From: an uncultured Alphaproteobacteria bacterium
Lineage (GTDB): Bacteria; Pseudomonadota; Alphaproteobacteria; SP197
Direction of reading: 5' to 3'
Length of the DNA stretch: 64,000 bases
Assembly (NCBI GenBank): GCA_943787175.1
Contig: CALSLK010000006.1
Coordinates: 248,001 to 312,000, forward strand
Shown here: in pieces, positions 24,201 to 39,346 of the stretch
Layout of the letters: the number at the start of each line of letters is the position of its first letter
Position numbering within the stretch: position 1 is the first letter of the stretch
The notes under the pieces: model-generated
Database searches by the model: none
Told to the model about the DNA's origin: nothing
The model's input: the letters and a program-made list of their open reading frames with translations, nothing else
Program-made: the position numbers and the translations under genes

Positions 24201-24910
24201 TCAGGCAGGGCGCCGTGAAGCCCGTCGCCTTCAAACGGTTTTCCACATCGGCCAGATAGTCCGACATGATCGGTTTGACATAGGCATTGGCGACCGTGGT
24301 TGTCTGGCGTTCATACTCGCGAATTTCCGGGCAGACATCGCTGGAGAGCGAGAGCGCCATGTCCGGGAAATGTTGCGTGACAAGCGCACCGATGCGCTGT
24401 TCGTGAGCGGGATTGGGCATAGGCGTGGAGCAGGCCAACCGAAACACTGGTCACGCCTTGTTTCTTGAGAGTTTCGAAGTGGGCGACAACGGCTGCTTCG
24501 TCCAGCTCTATGAGGACTTCACCGGATGAATTGACGCGTTCAGGCACAGGCAGACGCAGGGAGCGCGGCACCAGCGGCGGCGTGCGGTCCGCCATGATGT
24601 CGTATTGGTCGAAGCGGTTCTCGTAGGCGATTTCGAGCGAATCGCGATGGCCCTGGGTCACGAAAAGTGCAGTGGCCGCGCCCTTGCGCTCGATCAGCGC
24701 ATTGGTGGCAAGCGTGGTGCCGTGGAGGATGAGGTCGAGATCACCGGGCGCCACGCCGGAGGCTTCAACAACCTCCATGACACCTTCCATGAAACCATCA
24801 GCCGGCGCCTGGGGTGTAGTGAGCACCTTGGCAGTGGTCTGCTCGCCGTGCCTGTCGAGCACGATATCGGTGAAGGTTCCGCCAATATCGACGGCCAAAC
24901 GAACACTCAT
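21240..24910 (-). pseudogene. 5-oxoprolinase/hydantoinase-like HyuA-HyuB, possibly one fused gene, many frameshifts
   Basis: The HyuA half starts at ATG 24910 (MSVRLAVDIGGTFTDIVLD, ILHGTTLATNALIERKG). It passes through LLHAYA, TSGGSLVTIATARDFPVR, VVSFDMGGTTAKICL, GAGGGSLASVD and TDANLGLGRL, reaching VPPGWRCDVSAEGD near 22880. The HyuB half runs from about 22826 (MTADLAAGLRQQVLWDRM, REAGDLSAGVFD, TNDPWLGTGHLFD) to ELPGGGGLGEV at 21240. At least eight shifts break the frames. At the A/B junction the reading frame is continuous with no stop, and the total of about 1,220 codons equals fused 5-oxoprolinases. It is therefore either a fused oxoprolinase or two genes whose boundary is obscured. It converges on the molybdenum hydroxylase operon. 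Confidence 0.75.
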
Positions 24911-24941
24911 GGCTCTCGCTCCAATTCACGTGTGTCCCTAG

Positions 24942-25127
24942 CTCACTCCGCTAGACAGAACAACTGCTGATGTTGCCAAAGCTCTCACCGCCCTCATGGG
25001 GATCAAGGATCCCATTGAAGCTCTCAGCGATCTTACAACTCGTCATCGATCCCTATTGCGACACGCGAGGCGAAAAACTAAGATCAACCGGGAGGTTGAA
25101 TTTTATGTCAGGATTAATCGAATCTGA
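24942..25127 (+). CDS. Small ORF of unknown function just upstream of drt3a
   Basis: An open frame of 61 codons ends in TGA at 25125-25127, 2 bases before the drt3a ATG. The composition is protein-like (TADVAKALTALMGIKDPIEA, then RHARRKTKINREVEFYVRIN), basic and probably helical. The first ATG is at 24996 (43 aa); no good ribosome site is seen, so it could be the tail of a truncated gene. drt3a has no ribosome site of its own, so coupling to this frame would explain its translation. I do not recognise the family. Confidence 0.4.
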   Translation, partial: LTPLDRTTADVAKALTALMGIKDPIEALSDLTTRHRSLLRHARRKTKINREVEFYVRINRI

Positions 25128-25129
25128 AT

Positions 25130-26388
25130 ATGTTTGACTCGTCTTTTACTATTCAAAGTTTGGGTCCTGAGATTCGCATCTCAGACTATCGAAAATTCCC
25201 TTTTCTCGGAAACGAGGTCTGCTAGACACCTTTTTTTGAACGCCACAGCATCTGCGGCCCAAAGTAGGACCGTTAGTCCAAATCTGGTTAAACATTACTA
25301 AGGCTGGTAGGGAAGTCTATATTGTATCCGATCTCGCATCCGACCTAATTTTGCGGAAGATCGCGGGAAATGTTACAAACGCCTACAGAATTCGCTCGCC
25401 CGATCGTCAATCAATAAGCCGATGTATTTCATCGCTCCTTGGTAAGGGGGCACCGTTTCAGGTGGTAACGATTGATATTCGGGATTTCTACGCATCCGTG
25501 GATCGTGACACCTTGCTAAAAATTTTGATACATGATGACATTCTAAATTCTGACTCCATACATATGCTGGAGAGTTATTTTCTTAAGTTGGATTCAGACG
25601 GTATTAGGGGTCTCCCACAGGGCCATAAATTGAGTGCAGTTCTTGCAAATTTCTATCTGAATGTTATTGATCAATCACTTATTCAAACAGCCGGTGTTAT
25701 TTTTTATTCGCGTTTTGTAGATGATATTGTTTTAATACGGACGCATGGTTCACATTCGAATAAAACACTTAGTTTTTTTGATTCTACCTTACCTCTAAAC
25801 CTAACAGTAAATATGTCTAAATTTAGACAGATAGATTTTGTATATAAAAAACCAAAACCGAATCCCGTTGTTGAAAGGTGGGTTTGATTTTCTCGGTTAT
25901 CATTTTTCTTGCACACATTTAAAGCGACTAAAAGTTGGAAATGGGTATCTGTAGAGATATTATAGTTGATATTGCAGATCGAAAAGTCAAAAAAATAAAG
26001 TCCAAAAGTCATTATTGCTGCCAAATCATACCTACGCGATAAAAATTTCAGCCTTTTTCTGTCTCGAATTCAGCTTCTCTCATCCAACTACCAAATGAAC
26101 GATTTCAATGCGAATCGATGGAGATTGTGCGGAATTTATTACAGCTACCCACTCCTATCGAAGCCAGAAGGTAGTGGCTTGGCGTCGCTAGATAAGTTTC
26201 TGATCGGCTTAGTTACAGGTTCAAAGCAGAGGCTTTCATTGGAACTCCGCAAATCGATCACTCGTAGGATGCGATCTGAAATTTTGTCTCACTCCTTCGT
26301 TGCTGGTTATCAGCAAAGAAGATTCTATCACTTTTCTACAGTTCAACTACAGTCCATTAATGAGTGTTGGAAAAATGTTAAACTCTAA
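25130..26388 (+). pseudogene. drt3a: Drt3a-like defence reverse transcriptase (unknown-group RT, UG3 type), frameshifted
   Basis: Joined frames give about 419 aa. ATG 25130 opens MFDSSFTIQSLGPEIRISDY, stopped by TAG at 25223. A second frame (25224 to about 25295) and a third (about 25291-25887) carry the RT core: VVTIDIRDFYASVDR, the GLPQGHKLSAVLANFYL box and the catalytic FVDD at 25714-25725. A shift near 25875 gives KGGFDFLGYHF. Further shifts near 25945-26015 lead to AAKSYLRDKNFSLFLSRIQ and the intact end from 26095 (CGIYYSYPLL, YHFSTVQLQSINECWKN). No maturase, HNH or retron-type C-terminus is present. Size, order before a second RT, and the N- and C-terminal features agree with Drt3a of DRT3 antiphage systems. 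Base composition is strongly AT-rich. Inactive as written. Confidence 0.7.
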
Positions 26389-26401
26389 ACGAAAAAAATG
26401 A

Positions 26402-28342
26402 ATGTGGATAGATAGGAAAAATTTTTTTCGCGTTCTCGTAACTGAAACTGCTCCTTATGATATGCCTTTTATTATTTCAAACAATGGATTCTATGAAAAT
26501 ATTAGAAACGTTATAAAATTTTCAAAAAATAACTATTATCTAATAGACAAAATAATTCTAAATAACAAAAAGAGATACACTATTCCATATCGATATAAAA
26601 TCGTTAAAAATGACACTGAATTCTGTTAGCTTTCACTTATACATCCATCAAATCAGGTATCTGCAGTCAAATTTTATGAGGAATTTTCTGATTTTATACT
26701 GTATTATTGCAGGAAAAGTCCATTCTCGATTAGAACACCGTACAAAATTGCTCAAAATTTTTTCCTCAAAGGCCCACGTTCGAATATCAATATGTTTCGC
26801 ATTGGCGCCGTTGACACGCATACACATGAATTAGAAGCGAGAAACCCATCGTCATATTTTGTTTACTCGCGCTATCGACGGCTTCACGAGTTCTTTTCGT
26901 CATCTGACCTTTATGATCTAGAGCGACGATATCCTTTGATGGTAATGATGGATATTACGAGATGTTTTCCAAGTATATATTCCCATTCGATTACTTGGGC
27001 TGTTGTTTCTACAAAATTTGCAAAAGATAACACGTCATCTATGGGTTTTGCCAATCGCTTTGACCGCTTTATGCAGAGTATGAATTATAACGAAACGAAC
27101 GGGATATGTGTTGGTCCCGAGTTAAGCAGAATATTTGCAGAAATTATTCTCACAAAAATTGACGTTGTTCTGGAAAGTTCCGCGACTGGAAAAAACCTTA
27201 GGCGAAGTTTGGATTATGAGATTAGACGCTATGTGGACGACTACTTTTTGTTTGTTAGAGATACAAAGGTCGCGCGATCTTTGTCTCGTCTCTTAGCCGA
27301 GGCTCTGGGCAGTGTAGGGCTTTCCTTGAATGAGCAGAAACTACAAACCCTGGGCCGTCCATTTCTGACTCCAACTTCACGAGCAATCTCGCTGGTTGGA
27401 ACAGTGTTCTCAAAATTTTCAGATCGCATACTTGAAAAGCGCCAGCCTGGAGATGCTCGCACTTCTGTTTACGTACCAAGGTACATTCGTGATGCAGGCC
27501 GGCTACGCAACAGCTTTCTCTTAGAGCTAAAGACTGCTTGCTCTGAGGTAGGAAGTGGCTATGAAGTTGTAGCAAATTACCTGGTGGCAGCTCTGACTTT
27601 ACGTATTGAGTGGGCGACTGATTGGATCGAAGAAGGCATCGAAGAAGGGATTGACCCGAAGCGATATGTAGATCTGATTCTTCTACTTTCAGATTTGGCC
27701 TTCTTCCTCTATACGGTGAAGCCGTCGGTATCGTCGTCGTATAGTTTATCTCGCCTGATCTTGCGAATAGAGGTATTAGTTGAATCGAACTTGTCCGAAT
27801 ATCGAGGATACATTGTAGATTATTTGTCAAATTTGGTCATAATACTTCACAATTCTGATTCTCTTAAAAACCTAATTGAATACGATGCGAAAATTCCAAT
27901 TGAATCATTGAATATTTTAGTTGCGTTTAGTTCGATTACAAAGAGGGACATATTTTACCGCTCAACAATTCAATCCTATGTGGCCGAAAACTCAAATTTC
28001 GAATACTTTCAAACTGTCTCGATATTATATTGTATTGGTAGTGATATTCGATTTGATGATCTTCGCTACAACTTGGTTGATCATTTATTAAATCGCGCGG
28101 TCATTGACTTAGATCCAGAAACTTCTGCACATGATGCTCATTTGCTACTGGATATGCTCTCTTGTCCCTATGTCAATTTGTCTGATCGGCAAGAGCTCCT
28201 CGATAAGATTAGGACGCGCCTCTCTCTTCCCAAGCTGTCAGCTGCGGAACTTGGGGCATCAGTCAAGGAGATGGAGGAGAATCCCTGGTTCGTTCAGTGG
28301 AGTGGCCCTGGGTTGTTTAACCTTCTTCAAAAAAGGAATTGA
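26402..28342 (+). CDS. drt3b: Drt3b-like defence reverse transcriptase (UG8 type), interrupted by one in-frame TAG
   Basis: One reading frame of 646 codons from ATG 26402, 13 bases after drt3a. The N-terminal 75 codons (RKNFFRVLVTETAPYDMPFI) end at TAG 26627-26629. The same frame resumes at once as LSLIHPSNQVSAVKFYEEFS and YYCRKSPFSIRTPYKIAQNF, and stays open to 28342. RT motifs: VMMDITRCFPSIYSHSITW, the box ICVGPELSRIFAEIIL and the catalytic YVDD at 27230-27241. A long helical C-terminal half follows. Since both sides of the TAG are in frame and homologous in style, one base change (for example CAG or AAG to TAG) explains it. If read as separate genes, the downstream part has its first ATG at 26792 and would lack the N-terminal region. 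AT-rich like drt3a. The DRT3 partner role is inferred from pairing and motifs. Confidence 0.72.
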
Positions 28343-28363
28343 ATTCGGTGTATTGACGCTTTA

Positions 28364-28522
28364 GTGCGAGCGTGAGGGGTTCGGTCGTCGCTTTAACGCG
28401 CGCCACACTGGTCGCGTCTTACAGTGCACTTTGAATCGTCGAGTCGTTCAACTCGACTAGGATGAGTGTATTGGGTCGAAAGACACACACAGCAAGTGGC
28501 ACCGTTCTCCTCACCTTCGCAC
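28364..28522 (+). ncRNA. Candidate DRT3 templating noncoding RNA with ACACACACA
   Basis: Starts 21 bases after drt3b and is more GC-rich than the RT genes. The outer arms pair: GTGCGA (28364-28369) with TCGCAC (28517-28522), then a 2x2 internal loop, then GTGAGG (28372-28377) with CCTCAC (28509-28514). Inside is a perfect 7-bp hairpin, GTCGAGT (28438-28444) with ACTCGAC (28451-28457). A GTC-GAAA-GAC tetraloop hairpin (28475-28484) runs straight into ACACACACA (28483-28491). DRT3 systems, as I recall them, use an ACACAC template in an ncRNA for poly(GT) synthesis by Drt3a. The position, fold and repeat fit that model. No promoter was identified. Confidence 0.6.
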
Positions 28523-28610
28523 CACCTACGCCAATGACCAGTCGAGATGGAAGTCGAACGCGCTGGCAAGGATTGCCTTGAGCTCCTGCCCCTTTGCGTC
28601 GGGCAGAGCA

Positions 28611-29438
28611 TCAAGGGGCGGGCCGCACGGTCTTCCATCGCTGATCGCCCGTGGCATCGGCCAACAGCCATTTCATGGCCGGGATCGGGCCAAAGGGCTG
28701 GACGGCAACGCGGAACGCCTTGACCCGCGCCTGGCGCTCATCGGCATCGTCACCCTGCCAATTGGCAAAGATGCCGTGGATGGCCGATGCGTTGATATTG
28801 GCCGTGGCTGTGATGCAGCCCGACGCGCCCATGCGCAGGGCTTCAAGAAGCGGGACTTCCGAGCCGGGGAAGGTGTGGAGTGACGGCACGGCTTCCAGGA
28901 TCGCCTTGGTGTTGTCCCAGTCGCCGGAACTGTCTTTCAGGCCCACGACATGTTCGGGGAAATCTGCCTGCAGGCGGGCGATGAGATCAAGGCCAAAGCC
29001 GATCACCGCAATAGGGGGGATGTGATAGAGGTAGATGCGAATCTGAGGCACAGCCTTGATGAGCGCGGCAAAATAGGCGTGGATACCGTCGTCACTGACG
29101 CCCTTGAAGTAGAACGGCGGCAGGACCATCACGCCGATGCAGCCCAGATCCATGGCATGGCGCGAAAGCTCTGCGGTGTCGGGCAGGTTGGTAAGACCCG
29201 TGCCAACCATCAGCCGGTCTGCGGGAATGCCATCAGCAATCAGCGCTTCAAGAAGATGTTTGCGCTCGGCCATGCCGATGGAAAGGGCTTCACCGGTGGT
29301 TCCGAACGGCGTAATCGCCGCGCAACCCTGATCGAGCAACCAGTGGGCGTGGCGCAGATAGAGGTCCTCTGCAACGCTCAAGTCATCGTTGAACGGCGTC
29401 AGATTGGGCGAGACGATGCCCCGGAGTTTTTCGGCCAT
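28611..29438 (-). CDS. Dihydrodipicolinate synthase / N-acetylneuraminate lyase family aldolase
   Basis: A class I aldolase of 275 aa as written. Key features: FGTTGEALSIG (about residue 45), the Tyr in IYLYHIPP (about 136) and the Schiff-base Lys in VGLKDSSGDWDN (about 163). Family members make or cleave 2-oxo acids. The C-terminus ends early in WKTVRPAP. One base lost in the C-run near 28615 would restore RP-LDALPDAKGQELKAIL and a stop near 28526, the more usual length, so a terminal frameshift is likely. The extended end would abut the candidate ncRNA, marking the right edge of the AT-rich island. It is probably co-transcribed with the upstream aminotransferase (24-base gap). Confidence 0.85.
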   Translation of the reverse strand: MAEKLRGIVSPNLTPFNDDLSVAEDLYLRHAHWLLDQGCAAITPFGTTGEALSIGMAERKHLLEALIADGIPADRLMVGTGLTNLPDTAELSRHAMDLGCIGVMVLPPFYFKGVSDDGIHAYFAALIKAVPQIRIYLYHIPPIAVIGFGLDLIARLQADFPEHVVGLKDSSGDWDNTKAILEAVPSLHTFPGSEVPLLEALRMGASGCITATANINASAIHGIFANWQGDDADERQARVKAFRVAVQPFGPIPAMKWLLADATGDQRWKTVRPAP

Positions 29439-37814: not shown

Positions 37815-39346
37815 CAGCGTTTCCTTTCGGGCAGCAGGATGGGGAACCGTTCGCGGATCGCACGGTCCGCATCGGCTGGGACATGGCCGGACATGGGTTC
37901 AGCCAGAATCGCGGCAACCCGGTCGCGTGCACGGTCCCACAGGGTGGGTGAGCCGTCCTTCTGCCAGTCGGCGACGCTGCGGCGGTCACCCAGATCGGGA
38001 TAGAGGTAGTCGCGTTTCATCAGGCGCATGGTCTGGTCGGTACCCAGAAAATGACCCTCGCCGTGGACCACCGATTCGATGACATCGACCGAGAGTGTTT
38101 CGGGCGAAACCTCGATGCCGCGCACCGTGCGCAGGATGGCGCCATGCATGTCGTTGTCGATGACAAAGGCTTCGGCGGACGCAGCCATGATGCTGCCCAG
38201 CATGCCAGCCGAGAGGTTGACCATGTTGGATCCGGCATGGGCCGTCAGCGCGACGGTGAGACCCTTCTCGTAACCGGCCTGATTGTCGGCCTGCTTGGCA
38301 TCGGTCATGCCGGCACATGCGGTCGAGGGCAGACCAAGACGATGGAGCAGTTGCGACGCGGCCGCGCTGGCGATCGCGCATTCGCCCGAACCGCCGGTCA
38401 TGGCCCCGGTGCGCAGATCCGAGATGAACGGCATGAAGGCCGAGATCACGGGATGGCCGGGTTTGATAGCGTTGACATAGATGACACCGGCCAGACATTC
38501 GGCCAATCCCTGTGCCAGGGCACCAGCCAGTGCTGCGGGGCTGGTGGCGCCGGCCTGCCCTGCCGAGCAAGTCTGGATCGGCATACCGCGCGCGATGGCA
38601 CGCTCCATCACCAGGCAGCCTTCGGTGGCAAACCGCATGGGCGGCACGACATGGACGGCTGCCACAAAACAGGCCGGGCGTTCCGCAAAGGGTGCACCGG
38701 TTGCCATGGCGATCATATCGGCGACGTCGTCCACCGTGTCGGGGCCAGTAAAGGAAAGGCCAATGGGTTTGGTTGTGCCCGAGAGGCAGGCATAAGCGGT
38801 GTTGATGTCGAGCGTGCGATCATCAGGCATGTCACGTGCGACGGTGGGCCGCAGGAAATAGTGGATGTTGTCGCAGACATCGACCACACGGGCGAGGTCC
38901 TGGAGATCAAGCGCGGTGGAGTCCCTGAACTGGCCCGTTGCGCCATCAAGCACCTGCACCGCTGCACCGCCGACCCCCAGATGGACCCGCTGGCCCCCGA
39001 CGTTGAGGTCCCGATCGGCGCGGAAACCGAACACGGTGGTCTCCCGTGGGGCGAGCGCAAGCGTGGCTTCAGCCATGGCGCGGGACAGATAGACACGACC
39101 ACTGTCATCAACTCTGGCACCAGCTGCCACCATGGCGTCGATACCGCTTTGCGGCGCACCGGCAAAACCGACACGCTCGAGCAGTTCAAACGCCGCATCG
39201 ATCACCTGATCGGCGGCACGGTCATCGAGAGGGCGCAGGGCACCTCCGGGAAGGCCTGGAACGACGACCGGCGCTTCGTCGCTGGCTGACGCCCTGGGCG
39301 CGCGGCGGCGTCCCGGTCGTGCCTGTGTGCTGGCGGAATCATCCAT
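37814..39346 (-). CDS. Trimethylamine methyltransferase (MttB) family protein, non-pyrrolysine type
   Basis: A cobalamin-dependent methyltransferase-family protein of 510 aa. Family features: FELLERVGFAGAP at the N-terminus, YLSRAMAEATLALAPRETTV, TTKPIGLSFTGPDTVDD and IDNDMHGAILRTVRGIEVSPET near the C-terminus. No in-frame TAG is present, so it belongs to the non-Pyl branch, several members of which demethylate glycine betaine or other quaternary amines. No corrinoid protein gene is adjacent. It is the first gene of an operon with the SRPBCC protein and, further on, the isomerase-like, dehydrogenase and sulfatase genes. A basic N-terminal tail (residues 8-20) is unusual and may be disordered. 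Confidence 0.88.
   Translation of the reverse strand: MDDSASTQARPGRRRAPRASASDEAPVVVPGLPGGALRPLDDRAADQVIDAAFELLERVGFAGAPQSGIDAMVAAGARVDDSGRVYLSRAMAEATLALAPRETTVFGFRADRDLNVGGQRVHLGVGGAAVQVLDGATGQFRDSTALDLQDLARVVDVCDNIHYFLRPTVARDMPDDRTLDINTAYACLSGTTKPIGLSFTGPDTVDDVADMIAMATGAPFAERPACFVAAVHVVPPMRFATEGCLVMERAIARGMPIQTCSAGQAGATSPAALAGALAQGLAECLAGVIYVNAIKPGHPVISAFMPFISDLRTGAMTGGSGECAIASAAASQLLHRLGLPSTACAGMTDAKQADNQAGYEKGLTVALTAHAGSNMVNLSAGMLGSIMAASAEAFVIDNDMHGAILRTVRGIEVSPETLSVDVIESVVHGEGHFLGTDQTMRLMKRDYLYPDLGDRRSVADWQKDGSPTLWDRARDRVAAILAEPMSGHVPADADRAIRERFPILLPERKR

Follow-up and report, generated by a model that had tools for sequence, protein, structure and literature searches.

The window, the whole stretch of 64,000 nucleotides that we analysed, carries two reverse transcriptase (RT) genes and a predicted structured RNA, one behind the other (Table 1). 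Judged by its sequence, the gene upstream of the RNA is drt3b, preceded by drt3a. The NCBIfam Drt3b model NF041748 gave 508 bits for 26630-28339 alone (cut-off 350) and 49 bits for 26402-26626, and an in-frame TAG lies between them at 26627-26629, at or beside the position of R71. Clear pieces of drt3a were found at 25351-25887 and 26095-26388; PADLOC matched Drt3a on the two pieces, in order, with E values of 6e-43 and 5e-22, and the NCBIfam Drt3a model gave 138 and 68 bits, each below the cut-off of 200 that applies to the whole protein. The drt3a start at 25130 is our reading. As assembled, both RT frames are broken, so activity at the locus is uncertain: drt3a runs through several frames, and the drt3b frame stops early, with the conserved C-terminal residues up to the tyrosine codon in another frame (to 28356). 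The codon of the priming tyrosine (Y666) is present a few bases on, outside the assembled frame.

We aligned the window Drt3b with that of the E. coli locus L126 (667 aa), whose numbering is used here and whose residues agree with those named by Wang et al. 2026 (PMC13174585). The results showed that D182, F187, R241 and YVDD are kept and that D stands in place of E22, so the residues for selectivity and catalysis (E or D at position 22, R241 and YVDD) are present in the window protein. The same paper reports D for E22 in a substantial fraction of Drt3b homologues, with partial activity retained.

An Rfam match to PYLIS_3 was observed at 38209-38308 on the reverse strand, within an MTTB-family gene (37850-39310) that has no in-frame stop. 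The pyrrolysine reading of the drt3b TAG, which this match prompted, was rejected: 12 of 12 MTTB-family matches in the genome are without an internal stop, and the gene therefore looks like a non-pyrrolysine branch and the PYLIS_3 match misleading.

Table 1. Features of the DRT3 locus, in positions of the window
Feature	Position	Strand	Basis or remark
Horizontally acquired DRT3 island, low GC, absent from four congeners	24912-28533	.	flank alignments, GC profile; ends +/- few bases
drt3a (RT, UG3 class), pieces in different frames as assembled	25130-26388	+	PADLOC and NCBIfam profiles
drt3b (RT, UG8 class)	26402-28342	+	NCBIfam Drt3b, PADLOC 1e-135
DRT3 ncRNA, predicted	28364-28522	+	fold -75.2 kcal/mol, z -5.92; GC-corrected energy best against 2130 tiles
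Closing stem, outer, 5' arm	28364-28379	+	15 bp with 28507-28522; predicted fold
Closing stem, inner, 5' arm	28382-28393	+	11 bp with 28494-28504; predicted fold
Stem-loop 1, 9 bp	28396-28417	+	arms 28396-28405/28409-28417; predicted fold
Stem-loop 2, 10-bp stem and apical 7 bp	28422-28473	+	10-bp stem 28422-28431/28464-28473; predicted fold
Stem-loop 3 (3 bp, GAAA cap), immediately 5' of template	28475-28484	+	arms 28475-28477/28482-28484; predicted fold
Predicted single-stranded template ACACACA	28485-28491	+	unpaired probabilities; conserved hexamer in relatives
Closing stem, inner, 3' arm	28494-28504	+	partner of 28382-28393; predicted fold
Closing stem, outer, 3' arm	28507-28522	+	partner of 28364-28379; predicted fold

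The acquired island

GC content drops from about 0.6 to 0.24-0.5 across about 25.0-28.4 kb. In four same-genus genomes (4/4 empty sites examined), both flanks are adjacent on one contig and the island is missing. The congener matches end at window positions 24901-24925 on the left and resume at 28534-28536 on the right; in L141 and L142 the flanks share 3 and 14 bases, and gaps of 23 and 144 bases separate them in L143 and L140. Because the congener flanks adjoin, the window holds an insertion of about 3.6 kb that consists of drt3a, drt3b and the predicted RNA, with 11-13 bases between the end of the RNA and the right-hand boundary of the island. No Drt3b was found at E 1e-60 in 15 further genomes of the order, one other genome in a phylum sample of 398 had a Drt3b at E 1e-40, and viral contigs queried with the window protein alone yielded no relative.

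Fold and AC run of the predicted RNA

The original prediction had placed a structured RNA directly behind drt3b, with outer arms closing a 159-base element, a 7-bp hairpin, and a GAAA-capped hairpin followed directly by ACACACACA. The structured RNA was borne out, with every named piece in its place. In the predicted fold, a two-part closing stem surrounds three stem-loops and then the AC run. The outer arms do close the element, pairing over 15 bp and continuing inward by 11 bp. The 7-bp hairpin (28438-28444/28451-28457) was also recovered, as the tip of the 10-bp stem in stem-loop 2; this base stem and the 9-bp hairpin of stem-loop 1 had both been missing from the earlier list. In the ensemble, the stem-loop 1 region shows an alternative pairing (centroid structure). 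The last part of the prediction held in part: the GAAA hairpin is present, with only 3 bp, and the 9-base run ACACACACA lies at 28483-28491, but it does not simply follow the hairpin, as its first AC belongs to the hairpin's 3' arm. Because this first AC is paired, the free template is ACACACA, with an unpaired probability of 0.99-1.0 for six of its seven bases and of 0.68 at 28486.

ACACACACA is the sole AC/CA/GT/TG run of at least 8 bases within the window. The 5'-ACACAC-3' that a DRT3 ncRNA needs is therein present directly behind drt3b, and in the predicted fold the template is unpaired, adjoins a stem-loop and lies inside a structured RNA.

The stability of 28364-28522 was compared with that of 200 dinucleotide shuffles. 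Its minimum free energy was -75.2 kcal/mol, whereas the shuffles averaged -50.2 (sd 4.2), and none of the 200 was as stable; likewise, none of the 2130 159-mers tiled over both strands of the window lay as far below its GC-expected energy. When the sequence on either side was shuffled but the AC run left as it is, the template arrangement appeared in the best fold of 40 of 1000 versions. The arrangement in the window sequence by itself is thus weaker evidence (about p 0.04), and it is the family that carries the case rather than the window sequence alone. No Rfam family was found at the element, either in the whole window at the gathering cut-off or in 28300-28700, where the single match was a chance one (E 7.5, opposite strand).

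AC motif and arrangement in related loci

Genomes, viral contigs, plasmids and E. coli supplied a further 126 loci in addition to that of the window, the genome loci being the best 80 of 468. Those with a Drt3b ORF of at least 500 bits against a profile of ten Drt3b sequences were kept (112/127, window included); because several are near-identical pairs, they are not 112 independent events. Among the 15 dropped, which scored below 500 (L008, L054, L055, L105, L106, L114, L115 and L117-L124), ACACAC occurred in the 400 nt behind the ORF in 5, and the others were mostly broken ORFs or other RTs.

The 260 nt that follow drt3b contain ACACAC in 107 of the 112 loci (genome loci best 80 of 468), against 6.0 expected from dinucleotide shuffles, which makes it 18 times commoner than expected; within 400 nt it was present in 109. 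The AC repeat, on whose conservation in related loci the original prediction had staked itself, is therefore kept. CACACA, the same run in the other phase, was found in 96 loci and GTGTGT in 2, and apart from ACACAC and CACACA every dinucleotide-repeat hexamer was found in at most 10 of the 112. The run is CACACAC in 77 of 109, and 88 of 109 runs start with C. The loci bearing ACACAC span Pseudomonadota, Bacteroidota, Acidobacteriota, Thermodesulfobacteriota and others.

Three loci had no ACACAC within 400 nt behind drt3b. Two of them, L034 and L036 (Snodgrassella), carry Drt3a and Drt3b ORFs that look intact and include YVDD, E22, R241 and the C-terminal Tyr, but no ACACAC was found in the stretch that reaches from 3.5 kb upstream of the drt3b stop to 400 nt downstream of it. 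The RNA of these loci may be encoded elsewhere, or its template may be an altered one, in which case what the system makes might be something other than a TG repeat. The third, L088, has only CACAC at the expected template place, inside a very strong fold (400 nt behind drt3b). The capacity of the repeat to change can be tested directly on these few loci without the AC run. In one clade (L003, L004, L008, L012, L014, L082-L083, L085-L087, L090, L092, L094, L109-L111, L127 and L128), the AC run follows the drt3b stop after only about 25-50 nt, and the ncRNA is shorter or arranged otherwise than the long type of the window. Among complete E. coli genomes, blastn detected DRT3 loci akin to that of Enterobacter hormaechei (L010) in 22 of 5426, all chromosomal; some E. 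coli loci (L125, L126) adjoin phage-satellite-like genes, namely integrase, ogr/Delta and polarity suppression.

A Drt3a-like ORF lies upstream of Drt3b in 109 of the 112 loci and is missing in the window, L097 and L084. In the tree of the 112 proteins, the window falls on a long branch in a mainly alphaproteobacterial clade of 25 rows (support 100), and its best identity among them is 38% (genome loci best 80 of 468). R241, D182, F187, Y276 and D278 do not vary across the 112 rows. At position 22, 85 rows have E and 25 have D; R at position 71 and Y at position 666 are each found in 110 rows, and position 279 has D in 102 rows and N, in place of the second Asp of YxDD, in 10. The gaps of the window in this residue table reflect its broken frame.

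For the arrangement, each sequence was folded alone, and the rule was that a stem-loop ends at most 4 bases before the free template, that the closing stem lies 2-14 bases behind it and that the loop holds at least two branches. A stricter first rule was satisfied by 41 of 108 loci and 2.1% of 1080 shuffles; the window failed it because this version began the hexamer with the first AC and kept no more than 40 nt of the 3' tail. We then relaxed the rule, in the same way for real and shuffled sequences. In this looser form it was satisfied by 59 of 108 loci, the window among them with three branches, compared with 52 of 1080 shuffled-flank versions, and failed by 49, E. coli L125 and L126 among them.

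Seven sphingomonad-type relatives (L005, L006, L016-L018, L020 and L028) were aligned by sequence alone (alignment A2), and pairs were taken from an RNAalifold-derived structure, excluding three that cover the template. Both sides had changed in 19 of 35 pairs, whereas shuffles gave a mean of 9.4, with 0 of 500 as high as 19, and slid partners gave 6-9. In the closing stem, 8 of 13 pairs vary on both sides, and these compensatory changes support a predicted closing stem in the seven relatives. A nine-row alignment fitted to R1, the covariance model of the seven relatives, leans to structure and had 26 of 35 pairs changed on both sides. R1 did not find the window RNA, its best match lying elsewhere (7.5 bits, E 0.74); it missed 21 of the 30 relatives tried and found 9, of which 7 are its own training rows. 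The conservation of stems in related loci, also part of the original prediction, thus held for the recurring arrangement but not for the individual stem sequences, which are not recognisably kept. Across the 112 loci, the AC hexamer behind drt3b is constant and the stem sequences turn over, indicating that the AC run together with the arrangement detects these RNAs better than sequence or any one covariance model does.

Interpretation and known DRT3 systems

We regard it as very probable that 28364-28522 encodes the template RNA of Drt3a, within an anti-phage DRT3 system ordered drt3a - drt3b - ncRNA. This reading rests on the gene identities, the position, the predicted fold, the conservation of the AC motif and the arrangement, and the shared island. 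The templating role that had been proposed for the AC repeat gains support from the identities of drt3b and drt3a, the near-universal ACACAC, the recurrent arrangement and the E. coli experiments of PMC13174585.

The locus may instead be decayed, with the RNA as the remnant of a working ncRNA, both RT genes broken and the system dead; we consider this possible, though somewhat doubtful. The TAG at or beside the conserved R71, the end of the frame before the priming Tyr and the several frames of drt3a are what decay would leave, and an RNA alone may stay intact for a while after its genes fail. The catalytic YVDD motifs and R241 are retained, however, and the breaks extend beyond the island: ORFs are short throughout 20-27 kb, in native genes as well as those of the island, and the breaks reach the neighbouring native gene (about 22.8-24.9 kb). 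In 4 of 4 congener loci (L146-L149), the counterpart stretch of this gene forms open frames that measure 818-987 codons between stops, some of them truncated where the locus ends. A common cause, such as a local assembly error, is therefore as good an explanation, and the pattern suggests that the broken frames over 20-27 kb are such errors. A poor assembly stretch accounts for native and island breaks together, which the decay of two unrelated neighbours does less simply.

It is very improbable that the element is merely a structured 3' end of the drt3 operon, a terminator or mRNA stabiliser, whose AC run is incidental and templates nothing. Strong folds directly behind genes are common, but the forward strand from 28522 to 28700 gave no match to a T-rich intrinsic terminator, and the excess of the AC hexamer behind drt3b falls in one defined place of the fold. 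A chance inverted repeat is hardly credible, since its one support is the share of shuffled-flank versions that reproduce the arrangement, and in our view the energy controls against shuffles and window tiles already refute it.

The DRT3 ncRNA reading can be set beside the mechanism described for E. coli. PMC13174585 reports that ACACAC in the ncRNA templates the synthesis of poly(dT-dG) by Drt3a, that mutating this segment abolishes both product and defence, that Drt3b, gated by E22 and R241, starts its poly(dC-dA) on a Tyr primer, that the poly(dT-dG) and poly(dC-dA) strands anneal, and that RecBCD keeps the product in check until it is released by an inhibitor of phage origin, e.g. Gam. The same template role is reported in a review (PMC13314766), from Deng et al. 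2026. Templating and its products have thus been demonstrated in E. coli by others, and we infer transcription, binding and activity at the window locus. Here the predicted RNA would be transcribed behind drt3b and would fold into the closing stem and three stem-loops, exposing ACACACA to Drt3a, which would copy it repeatedly into poly(dT-dG). Drt3b would make poly(dC-dA) without a nucleic-acid template, and the two strands would anneal. On a 7-base alternating AC template, the product could slip back two bases and be extended by two, in a telomerase-like manner.

A bolder reading seems unlikely to us. It would have DRT3 template RNAs diverge past sequence recognition with one architecture kept, some lineages, such as the Snodgrassella loci with a product that may not be a TG repeat, change their template, and the window AC run, by reaching two bases into the template-side hairpin, let Drt3a overrun the template in register.

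The template role is already in print (PMC13174585, PMC13314766), and the window is a divergent further case of DRT3 that extends its template RNA to a divergent alphaproteobacterial system. The window shares with the E. coli system the order drt3a-drt3b, the Drt3b residues D182, F187, R241 and YVDD, and an RNA directly behind drt3b in which ACACAC stands beside a stem-loop (stem-loop 4 in PMC13174585). It differs in its 9-base AC run with two bases in a hairpin, in D for E22 and in the frames broken as assembled, and no recognisable sequence similarity was found between the two RNAs. The sphingomonad-type ncRNAs share with the window RNA the place, the closing stem, the stem-loops and the AC template, and their Drt3b proteins fall with that of the window in the same clade of 25 rows; their shared motifs, e.g. 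CACTTGAG, TTCTCCCGT and GATGATGAGCC, are missing from the window RNA, which R1 misses. More widely, the DRT10 and DRT9 ncRNAs (and telomerase RNA) resemble it in that a class 2 UG RT copies a short confined RNA template over and over, as stated in PMC13174585. Their RTs and product repeats differ from those of DRT3.
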